Under the pieces are notes generated by a model. The model saw only the letters and a program-made list of their open reading frames with translations, was not told where the DNA came from and did no database searches. A program made the translations under genes and the position numbers. This document shows, piece after piece, positions 5,589 through 36,320 of a stretch of 40,300 nt of DNA (the stretch's first letter is position 1; every line of letters begins with the position of its first letter). The DNA lies in IMG/VR virus record IMGVR_UViG_3300038461_000263, positions 1 through 40,300 of that record; one strand, 5' to 3'. Source of the DNA: a virus.

Positions 5589-5870
5589 ATGTCTATTACG
5601 ACTACTACAACTTTACCAGCTCCTCTGCAAGCTAGTTTCTCAATGAAACTTCTTTCAGTTCCGACCCCATATCTTGTTCACAAGATTCCGGCCGATCTGA
5701 AAACTATGCCGAGGAATGGCGGTACAACTCTCAGGATGAGACGGTACAACCAACTGGCGACAGCTATGGTACCATTAGGGAATAGTGGTGTAACTCCACC
5801 TCCCCAGAACCTTACTGCTGTGAACGTGGATGCGGCGATGTCATTTTACGGTTTTAAAGAGGCTGCTTAA
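5589..5870 (+). CDS. Major capsid protein, N-terminal exon (exon ends about 5852)
   Basis: This is the N-terminal part of a P22/N4-gp56-like coat protein. Family-like text runs through IPADLKTMPRNGGTTLRMRR and PLGNSGVTPPPQNLTAVNVD to SFYG (codon GGT 5850-5852). The frame then runs into FKEAA and TAA at 5868-5870, which do not belong to the family. The expected continuation, TYILMNEQV, resumes in the same frame at 5907-5932 and then TLQAQDPVLNEA from 6643. Joining 5589-5852, 5907-5932 and 6643-7300 gives a clean 316-codon frame (315 residues). The gene is therefore interrupted twice. The segment after 5852 is an intervening sequence, not coat. Confidence 0.88.
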   Translation: MSITTTTTLPAPLQASFSMKLLSVPTPYLVHKIPADLKTMPRNGGTTLRMRRYNQLATAMVPLGNSGVTPPPQNLTAVNVDAAMSFYGFKEAA

Positions 5871-5906
5871 GCAGAAAAGTGCCGTATATGTTCATCAACC
5901 TCAATG
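5853..5906 (+). other. 54-nt intervening sequence with group I P1/P10 ends but no core
   Basis: This segment separates coat codons GGT (Gly) and ACT (Thr) and holds an in-frame TAA, so it must be removed or bypassed for a full coat protein. The upstream exon end TACGGT pairs with GCCGTA (5881-5886), leaving a U-G pair at the junction as in a group I P1. The preceding AGT (5878-5880) pairs with the downstream exon ACT, as in P10. The last base is G, like the omega-G. A CTGCTTAAGCAG palindrome lies in the P1 loop. Fifty-four bases cannot hold P3-P8. It could be a deleted intron remnant, a substrate of the neighbouring intron core, or an assembly collapse. Confidence 0.6.
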
Positions 5907-5932
5907 ACTTATATTTTGATGAACGAGCAGGT
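5907..5932 (+). CDS. Major capsid protein, 26-nt mini-exon
   Basis: Encodes T-Y-I-L-M-N-E-Q plus the first two bases (GT) of a Val codon, in the same frame as exon 1. Related coat proteins read SFYG-TY..INEQV.LQ.QDPVLNEA at this point, from my knowledge of the family, so the stretch fills exactly the gap between the other two exons. It is bounded by the 54-nt insertion and by the group I intron, whose 5' splice site follows GAGCAGGT. Confidence 0.72.
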
Positions 5933-6642
5933 AGACCGCAAGAATTGCCTGCTATAAACTTTTGGTAATTTACTGGAAAGCCTAAATGATGTATGATCTA
6001 TGCGGAACATATAACACAAGGTAACCAGATGGAAGGCGAGAAATTGGCTTATATAGCCGGAATAGTAGATGGTGAAGGATCAATAATGATACAAAGAGAT
6101 ATGTCAATATCTTTCATGAGGCAAAGGCTTGAGAGAGGTTCTACAGAACCACACTATCACGCTTGCGTCAGAGTCGGAATGAACGATCCGTCTGCTGTTA
6201 ATTTTATACATGAAGTAACTGGATATGGAAAAGTTGTAAAAGAAAAACCATATCATCATAAAAAACCTATGTATAGATGGACTATAAGAAGAAGAGATGA
6301 AATAGTTCCTTTTTTGAGACTGATTTTGCCTTATTTATTGGTAAAAAAAACACAAGCTGAACTTGCTATTAAATTCATGGATGAATGGGTAAGTTCAAAT
6401 GGTATCCGACTTACTGATGGAATAAGAAAAAACAGAGAAAACGCGTGGTTAAAAATGAGAGAACTTAATGGAATCGTCCCGCCGCCAGCAACGACTAAAC
6501 CCAGAAGCACTGGGGGTAGAGACAAATCTATTCCCTTTGAATCGATAGTCTGATCTGCTTTGAAAATTGCAGAGGGAGGAATAACAAGACTCCCCGCCAG
6601 AAACTTGAATATCACGTAACTGGTCAATAAAGTAACAGAATG
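5933..6642 (+). ncRNA. Group I intron in the coat gene, encoding a LAGLIDADG endonuclease
   Basis: A 710-nt intron. P1: exon AGCAGGT pairs fully with intron GCCTGCT (5947-5953), with U-G at the splice site. A P-like element is AATTTACTGGAAAGCCT (5967-5983). An R-like element, CAACGACTAAAC, starts about 6489, and an S-like element, GATAGTCTGAT, about 6544. P7 is GACTA (6493-6497) with TAGTC (6546-6550). A P9-like hairpin GGGAG/CTCCC follows. The intron ends ...AATG, so G6642 is the omega-G. Splicing restores GTA-ACC-TTG-CAG (V-T-L-Q) in the coat frame. The endonuclease ORF extends through R and stops inside S. Self-splicing group I RNAs use external guanosine; this one is IA-like by its R element (tentative). 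Confidence 0.85.
6029..6553 (+). CDS. LAGLIDADG homing endonuclease, intron-encoded
   Basis: A 174-residue protein from ATG 6029 (AAGG seven bases upstream; an in-frame ATG at 5993 has no Shine-Dalgarno). The LAGLIDADG motif is LAYIAGIVDGEGSI at residues 6-19. A single motif is seen, so the enzyme probably acts as a homodimer, or the second domain is divergent (VPFLRLILPYLLVKKTQ at about 93-109). These enzymes cut intron-less alleles, here of the coat gene, so that the intron is copied in; some also act as maturases. The C-terminal 25 residues are Pro/Thr-rich and overlap the R and S elements of the ribozyme, so the same bases serve both protein and RNA core. Confidence 0.88.
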   Translation: MEGEKLAYIAGIVDGEGSIMIQRDMSISFMRQRLERGSTEPHYHACVRVGMNDPSAVNFIHEVTGYGKVVKEKPYHHKKPMYRWTIRRRDEIVPFLRLILPYLLVKKTQAELAIKFMDEWVSSNGIRLTDGIRKNRENAWLKMRELNGIVPPPATTKPRSTGGRDKSIPFESIV

Positions 6643-7300
6643 AACCTTGCAGGCGCAAGATCCTGTTCTTAACGAAGCCTCAATACGTTTAGGCGTATCG
6701 CTTCGTATGACGGAAGATCAGCTCATGAGAGATATGCTGGCTTCTACTAGTGCGTTTGTAAATTGTACAAATGGGGTTGATGGCGACAACCCAACTGAAA
6801 TTACACGATCAGATATTGATCTTGTAATTAGAAGTTTGAGAAACAACAATGCCATGCCATTCATCACTGGAATTGAAGGTGAGAATAAGTTTGGCACAAG
6901 TCCTGTAAGAGACGCATTTTTTGCATTAGGCCATACAAATTTGATCGGACAAATTGATCAATGTACTGGTTTTAAACAAAAGTGGGAATATCCGAATCAG
7001 CAATCCACATTGGAAGCTGAACATGGTGCAGTAGCCAACTTTAGATTCCTTTTGTCTAGCGTTGGATCTATCACGCCAACAGCTTCTATGCTGGGAGCAG
7101 ATATTTACAACATATTCTGCTGCGGTAAAGAGGCGTTTGCAGCTGTAGAAATGGATCAATATAGTGCGCAATTTATCTATTTGCCACCTATCTACAGTGG
7201 ACCATTAGCTCTTAACGCAAGCCTTGGGTATAAGTTTGCCGAAGTACCCAGATTGTTGCAAGATTTATGGTGTATAAACCTAAGAGCCACATTGGCATAA
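6643..7300 (+). CDS. Major capsid protein, C-terminal exon
   Basis: This exon continues the coat protein with TLQAQDPVLNEASIRLGVSL, then MTEDQLMRDMLAST, GDNPTEITRSDIDLV, KFGTSPVRDAFFAL, YNIFCCGKEAFAAVEMDQYS and PPIYSGPLALNASLGYKF. These are hallmark stretches of this HK97-fold coat family. The first A (6643) completes the Val codon begun by GT at 5931-5932. Read alone, the frame could start only at TTG 6647, with no Shine-Dalgarno, which again argues for splicing. The final TAA is followed by AGGAGG for the next gene. About 70% of the coat protein is here. Confidence 0.92.
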
Positions 7301-35873: not shown

Positions 35874-36233
35874 ATGTCGCTTGTTTGCGCAAATTGCCAG
35901 ATGGTTTTTTCTCCTCGAATAAGTGATGACGCAACGATGTGCTGTTACTGCAATACAGAGTACCAAAACCACCTACTTACCCAAACATGCAATGGCATTG
36001 AGCAATTCCTAAAGGACAAGCCACTAAGAGATTTTGCAATGAGATATGGTGTTAGGGAGGACCTTGCACGTTCTATCCTTGACCGCAAGTTTGAGAAACT
36101 ATCTGTAGACGATCTTTACATGGCTATCGAGATATTCAGGAAGATAAGGGTGGGCAATGCCCCCATGCTCATTCAGGAGTGTTTCAGGTGTATCTATGCT
36201 AAATCCCAAAAGGCCCTTGACTCCATCGTCTAA
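35874..36233 (+). CDS. Zinc-ribbon hypothetical protein
   Basis: A 119-residue protein from ATG 35874 (AAGGGG upstream; the longer frame to 35808 crosses the regulatory hairpin). The N-terminus has CANC (residues 5-8) and CCYC (23-26), a zinc ribbon of the MVFSPR-type. The C-terminal part is helical (LKDKPLRDFAMRYGVREDLA, VDDLYMAIEIFRKIRVGNAP) and looks like a DNA-contact or regulatory domain. Its last five codons lie within the tRNA-Glu gene, so its 3' end is cut off when the tRNA is processed. Confidence 0.7.
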   Translation: MSLVCANCQMVFSPRISDDATMCCYCNTEYQNHLLTQTCNGIEQFLKDKPLRDFAMRYGVREDLARSILDRKFEKLSVDDLYMAIEIFRKIRVGNAPMLIQECFRCIYAKSQKALDSIV

Positions 36234-36290
36234 TGGTTAGGACGTCAGACTTTCGCTCTGAAGATGTGGGTTCGAATCCCGCTGGGGCCA
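36219..36290 (+). tRNA. tRNA-Glu (anticodon TTC)
   Basis: Acceptor GACTCCA / TGGGGCC with an A-C mismatch at the second pair and one G-U, discriminator A and no encoded CCA. The D-arm is GTCT-AATGGTTA-GGAC, the anticodon arm TCAGA-CTTTCGC-TCTGA, and the T-arm GTGGG-TTCGAAT-CCCGC. All arms fold. The mismatch is unusual for a working tRNA, but such changes occur when a phage copy also serves as an attachment site. A small serine recombinase follows 115 bases later. The 5' end overlaps the stop region of the zinc-ribbon gene. Confidence 0.88.
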
Positions 36291-36320
36291 TATCCTTACA
36301 TTCCCATGTGCGATTTTCGT

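Follow-up and report, generated by a model that had tools for sequence, protein, structure and literature searches.

A core-less 54-nucleotide insert in a phage coat gene as the probable upstream part of a two-step composite group I intron

How can a virus produce its coat protein when the coat reading frame is interrupted by a stop-containing insert that is too short to hold a ribozyme? This question is raised by the virus record IMGVR_UViG_3300038461_000263 of IMG/VR, of which positions 1 to 40,300, a 40.3-kb stretch referred to here as the window, were analyzed. The record has a P22-like portal, and the split gene of its major head protein (coat) belongs to family phrog_1357. Direct reading of positions 5589-6642 confirmed to the base the layout given in the original prediction: a coat frame, 54 nucleotides (nt) with an in-frame TAA (5868-5870), a micro-exon of 26 nt and an intron of 710 nt. 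As judged from comparative sequence analysis, the insert is most probably the upstream part of a two-step composite intron, which until its removal would provide a coat fragment with a stop and a degradation tag. As part of this explanation, we consider the 54-nt insert a core-less group I mini-intron that is predicted to be spliced.

Group I splice signals of the mini-introns

The pairings proposed earlier for the ends of the insert were all present, that is, a P1 of TACGGT with GCCGTA carrying U.G at the cut, a P10, which reads AAGT:ACTT, and a terminal G. Comparison with 78 coat relatives, mostly 65-75% identical in amino acids to the window coat, revealed that intronless relatives join ...FYG straight to TYILLNEQV and are exactly 18 codons shorter. 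Hence, the segment TYIL(L/M)NEQV, for which homologous coat proteins were to be checked, is kept by intronless relatives.

Over 50 related viral contigs carry core-less inserts of 30-68 nt, which occupy about six sites in the same major-capsid family. Pattern scans, together with a second coat clade (clade B, ~42% identical to the window coat), yielded 42 entries corresponding to 41 distinct mini-introns of 32-68 nt in ~24 sequence groups, since L198 repeats L190 and is truncated by the end of its contig; L188 was overlooked by the automatic parse. A search of coat reading frames with a terminal Ala-Ala or Val-Ala added twelve further mini-introns; 11 occupy some five other positions in the coat gene, with unrelated P1/P10 sequences. 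These loci were picked for their AA or VA tails, and their P1/P10 agreement is partly by construction because the splice borders were placed by hand from P1/P10 and the reading frame. All counts take related sequences as independent and the p-values (~1e-10) therefore overstate; the definition of the tail (AA or VA), the boundary between early and late introns at codon 60 and the distance window of the helix termed alpha below were chosen after seeing the data. A pattern scan of genome contigs gave no match, and so no prophage or host link. In the named-phage collection, the clade-B coat had no relative at E<=1e-5 and the clade-A coat only four, at 20-30% identity. Some single coat genes have two to six introns (L189, L204, L054, L074, L177), and the gene, with over 15 sites of insertion, is a hotspot for introns.

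A P1 with U.G at the cut occurred in 42/42 entries and in 12/12 further mini-introns. Exons reading TAC, TTC or TTT were matched with guides reading GTA, GAA or AAA, respectively; in one of the pattern scans the 5' exon had been left out of the pattern. P10 was paired at positions 1-4 in all 42 entries. Its position 3, which coincides with the degenerate third base of a Thr codon, was paired in 42/42 through all four Watson-Crick types (T-A 21, G-C 9, A-T 7 and C-G 5), compared with a shuffled mean of 18. The terminal G was invariant in the 41 distinct mini-introns, and the further ones have it too, with P10 present in 12/12; the bases preceding this G vary (P9.0 inspected by eye). Selection on a duplex between exon and intron across the splice junction is hard to account for except through splicing. 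A catalytic core P3-P8 of their own is absent from the mini-introns, which are 30-68 nt long, and the core model described below matches only the downstream intron.

The downstream intron and the alpha helix

The Rfam model RF00028 scored only 11.8 bits on the 710-nt intron, far under its gathering cut-off. Since RF00028 is too weak for these introns, we built a covariance model from 13 short sister introns, with covarying P3, P4, P5, P6, P8 and P9; P7, being a pseudoknot, stood outside covariance scoring. This model found both halves of the 710-nt intron (27.5 and 22.3 bits, E 2e-6 and 6e-5), which flank a LAGLIDADG-type open reading frame (ORF). On this sequence evidence the downstream element is a genuine group I intron. 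Its ORF matches PHROGs labelled HNH endonuclease, yet it has a LAGLIDADG-like motif and weak LAGLIDADG matches in the PDB.

The presence of mini-introns was strictly tied to that of a downstream intron. In an unbiased retrieval of distinct full-length genes, all 14 genes with a mini-intron had a downstream intron and none lacked it, whereas among genes without a mini-intron 17 had such an intron and 96 did not. Likewise, no mini-intron lacking a downstream intron was seen among the genes found by pattern. The core model matched 42/42 mini-intron loci and 1/78 intronless-coat loci, and the lone match among the latter (L101:3205-3675) falls by its coordinates on the upstream side of the coat gene, probably within an adjacent one. 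Upstream introns alone showed no association with mini-introns.

Two features beyond the original prediction emerged, a degron-like FKEAA-stop and a helix, which we call alpha (5889-5898:5916-5925 in the window). Alpha is formed between the segment 1-5 nt past the mini-intron guide and the exon, with a mean best helix score of 8.7 vs 5.4 for shuffled sequences. In 33 of the 41 distinct mini-introns the exon arm of the best helix ends 5-10 nt (in practice 7-9) before the downstream 5' splice site, and this register holds across intervening exons of 26, 39, 48, 96 or 102 nt (shuffled-tail null, 4%). Among the other eight, the arm lies at 11 nt in L054 and at 14-15 nt in three site-100 introns, two of which were folded and have a longer P1; in L177 the best short helix lies elsewhere and a fuller helix TAACTTGT:ACAAGTTA exists, the register of which is not part of the 33/41. 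Minimum-energy folds gave a flush helix of 6 base pairs (bp) over a 96-nt exon in L178, and of only 5 bp over 168-nt exons in L170 and L207. In 11 of the 12 further mini-introns the distance from alpha to the 5' splice site of the downstream intron is 5-11 nt. Alpha thus directly abuts the downstream P1, and the 3' splice site of the mini-intron sits in the alpha loop.

Co-occurrence and alpha point to the downstream core as the one that probably excises the mini-intron first. On its side the order would be P1(mini)-alpha-P1(main)-P3...P9, so that alpha and P1(main) would occupy the usual place of P2. The downstream core would dock P1 of the mini-intron, excise the mini-intron with guanosine and join exon 1 to the micro-exon, and would then dock its own P1 and excise itself. 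The mini-intron would have to be spliced before the main intron because the core leaves at the second step. The leading idea of the original prediction, that the core of the next intron serves both P1/P10 modules, is accordingly the one favoured by P1/P10 covariation, by the lack of any mini-intron without a downstream core and by the conserved helix to the exon before the main P1.

Ala-Ala and Val-Ala tails in unspliced RNA

Reading on in frame from the exon leads to AA-stop or VA-stop in 40 of the 41 distinct mini-introns, and in 22 the ending is LAA. The same tail was observed in ordinary coat-gene introns at codon 60 or later, in 39/47 when read in the coat frame vs 1/94 in the other two frames, and in 3/17 early introns (before codon 60). 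Among the eight late introns lacking a tail, those of L184, L190 and L210 at codon 122 are preceded by a mini-intron, and the one of L065 was parsed wrongly; the other four are taken up below. The first downstream intron had a tail of its own in 0/42 cases behind a mini-intron vs 14/17 without one. If the unspliced frame continues past the mini-intron, the exon that follows reads xAA/VA-stop out of frame in 19/19 cases, compared with 0/10 for mini-introns with an internal stop and, by chance, ~1/60 genes without a mini-intron. The Ala codons of the tails vary synonymously, and different reading paths arrive at the same ending.

A scan of 2.9 million viral contigs for one version of the intron-borne tail returned 113 stretches, almost all of which fall within coat genes and follow the coat frame. 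One of the few matches outside the coat references, L296:2637, reads MTTIKKAIKG...RDQSFYLGRIVAQNKVSLIDLELLAA-stop; by eye it is perhaps a portal protein, and it had no PHROG match. Splicing of the capsid intron of LittleE and of the minor-tail-gene intron of Baka, both mycobacteriophages, has been shown by reverse transcription PCR (PMC3706429). Read in frame, the LittleE intron (L319:351-2592) ends ...VATAAA-stop and the Baka intron (L321:2-2000) ends ...DDLAAAAA-stop, although these phages are unrelated to this coat family. Intron-borne degrons may thus be general in phage structural genes; in the head-protein intron of Tuc2009 (codon 55) the frame stops at once.

In the ssrA degron, no part matters more to ClpXP than the final Ala-Ala (PMC7652416). 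The predicted incomplete coat product ends in Ala-Ala as well, or in Val-Ala. The mini-intron looks, from these reading frames, like a removable stop-plus-degron cassette. Translation of unspliced RNA would give a coat fragment ending at a stop preceded by Ala-Ala or Val-Ala, which would mark the truncated coat for ClpXP-type proteolysis, and the stop would keep ribosomes out of the downstream intron until the core has folded and the gate has been removed. In introns without a mini-intron, the same tail encoded within the intron would solve the truncated-coat problem. Most simply, coat truncated through translation of unspliced mRNA would poison assembly, and it would be tagged for destruction for this reason.

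The features of the locus are collected in Table 1. Elsewhere in the window, a phage-encoded tRNA-Glu (anticodon TTC) was found at 36218-36291.

Table 1. Coordinates of the coat-locus features in the window (pairings and intron borders predicted)
Feature	Position	Strand	Remarks
Coat (major head protein) exon 1	5589-5852	+	codons 1-88, ends ...MSFYG
P1 5' strand of mini-intron, TACGGT	5847-5852	+	final 6 nt of exon 1
Core-less 54-nt mini-intron TTTAAAGAGGCTGCTTAAGCAGAAAAGTGCCGTATATGTTCATCAACCTCAATG	5853-5906	+	missing in intronless relatives; P1, P10, terminal G
Degron-like frame F-K-E-A-A-stop in unspliced RNA	5853-5870	+	AA/VA-stop conserved, 40/41 distinct mini-introns
P10 strand AAGU	5877-5880	+	partner, exon ACUU 5907-5910; P10 covariation
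Mini-intron internal guide sequence (IGS) GCCGUA	5881-5886	+	partner, exon UACGGU 5847-5852
Alpha helix 5' arm UGUUCAUCAA	5889-5898	+	pairs with 5916-5925
Terminal (omega) G of mini-intron	5906	+	G in 41/41 distinct mini-introns
26-nt micro-exon TYILMNEQ+GT	5907-5932	+	retained by intronless coat proteins
Alpha helix 3' arm UUGAUGAACG	5916-5925	+	flush with main intron P1
Main intron P1 5' strand AGCAGGU (exon)	5926-5932	+	
Complete 710-nt group I intron (main)	5933-6642	+	
Main intron IGS GCCUGCU	5947-5953	+	
Main intron core-model match, 5' half	5955-6115	+	overlaps ORF
Homing-endonuclease ORF in main intron	5993-6553	+	LAGLIDADG-like motif YIAGIVDGEGSI; PHROG label HNH
Main intron core-model match, 3' half	6438-6593	+	overlaps ORF
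Coat exon 3, A-TLQAQDP...	6643-7300	+	

Alternative explanations and relation to known systems

Several observations weigh against the composite-intron explanation. We infer the identity of the acting core from co-occurrence and from alpha, and alpha is weak or displaced in L177, L233 and L304 and only 5 bp long in L170 and L207. The tail is missing from L087 (11131-11214), which is one base shorter than its near-identical sister L082, so that the degron frame is destroyed, be it by a real mutation or by a sequencing error. The late introns of L067, L074, L077 and L184 (codon 66) have neither a tail nor an upstream mini-intron, and L233 combines a mini-intron with an intron-borne tail. As to the core that acts, the mini-intron might instead be spliced in trans by that of another intron copy or of an excised intron, or with the help of a protein, while alpha would only present the 3' splice site or hide it from ribosomes. 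Such an arrangement, which is unlikely, would fit P1/P10 pairs that covary although the mini-intron has no core of its own, and group I ribozymes do act in vitro in trans on supplied substrate helices; it would leave unexplained why every mini-intron has a core downstream in the same gene, why upstream introns alone show no association and why alpha keeps its register with P1 of the following intron across 26-102 nt. Somewhat less likely still is that the AA/VA-stop is a by-product of how the RNA folds or of a favoured stop context and no degradation signal. In some mini-introns the GCNGCN codons do fall in a small hairpin or in alpha, but the Ala codons vary synonymously, the tail is confined to the coat frame (39/47 vs 1/94), different reading paths give one ending, the wording of the exon tracks insert length, and unrelated LittleE and Baka introns end in the same way; moreover, the tail is absent when the fragment is short or a mini-intron lies upstream.

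The remaining alternatives had been listed in the original prediction and fared poorly. A programmed bypass, in which ribosomes hop over the 54 nt as in T4 gene 60 and no RNA is spliced, could draw on the stop codon and hairpin right after the Gly codon and on the coat frame that resumes past the gap. It is nevertheless very improbable in view of the four-way covariation of P10, the invariant terminal G, insert lengths that vary from 30 to 68 nt with a stop often outside the insert, the strict co-occurrence with a downstream intron and the lack of a landing codon matching GGU (GGT vs NNG before ACN). We give even less credence to the insert being the dead relic of a group I intron whose core was lost, or to an assembly artefact such as the collapse of two similar introns. 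The absence of P3-P8 and the complete intron 26 nt away would agree with either, but inserts with compensatory changes and a conserved end of the reading frame recur in dozens of coat genes, on more than 50 related and many independent contigs and at about six sites.

The composite intron proposed here shares with phage group I introns (subgroup IA-like) the U.G at the 5' splice site, P1, P10, the terminal G and a downstream partner with a covarying P3-P9 core that may carry a homing-endonuclease ORF; it differs in that the mini-intron is without P3-P9 and that one core seems to serve two P1/P10 pairs sequentially. In split and trans-splicing group I introns one core is rebuilt for one intron, and P1 can be supplied in trans in vitro. 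Here too P1 is separated from the core proposed to use it, but the complete intron would also act on a second intron, smaller than itself and linked to it by alpha. Group III introns and twintrons of Euglena, which derive from group II, likewise include core-less mini-introns thought to need catalytic parts from elsewhere, as well as sequential excision; no group I counterpart of them was found in the literature searched. The T4 gene 60 bypass has a similar gap of ~50 nt with an early stop codon, whereas matched take-off and landing codons are lacking here and P1/P10 covariation indicates RNA splicing. In the exon-skipping introns of phage Twort orf142 and the Coxiella 23S rRNA (PMC10136302), a very short exon, of 23 or 34 nt, is likewise flanked by two group I splice units; both introns are complete there and the short exon is sometimes lost, whereas in the coat gene the upstream unit has no core and the micro-exon has to be retained. 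The predicted tail resembles the ssrA (tmRNA) tag recognized by ClpXP (PMC7652416) in placing a C-terminal Ala-Ala, often Leu-Ala-Ala, on an incomplete protein, but it would be encoded by the intron or mini-intron itself, so that ordinary translation of the unspliced RNA would add it and no tmRNA would take part. Literature on intron-encoded degrons and core-less group I introns yielded nothing relevant, a search of partial coverage and hence weak evidence of absence.

A single ribozyme core that in nature removes two introns, always in the same order and the first of them core-less, would be a form of group I splicing without precedent in the literature searched. Because such coat genes appear broken or truncated to automatic annotation, gene calling would be affected as well. 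We consider it likely, if less so than the composite intron itself, that the tails belong to a phage-wide quality control, in which group I introns of structural genes would encode tails by which proteins made from unspliced mRNA are tagged for proteolysis, or else a detachable core-less mini-intron, excised by the neighbouring ribozyme, would supply the tag and the stop and enforce the order of folding, splicing and translation. Such an intron-carried degradation tag would explain why truncated subunits do not poison assembly in phages that have introns in highly expressed structural genes and in which transcription and translation are coupled.
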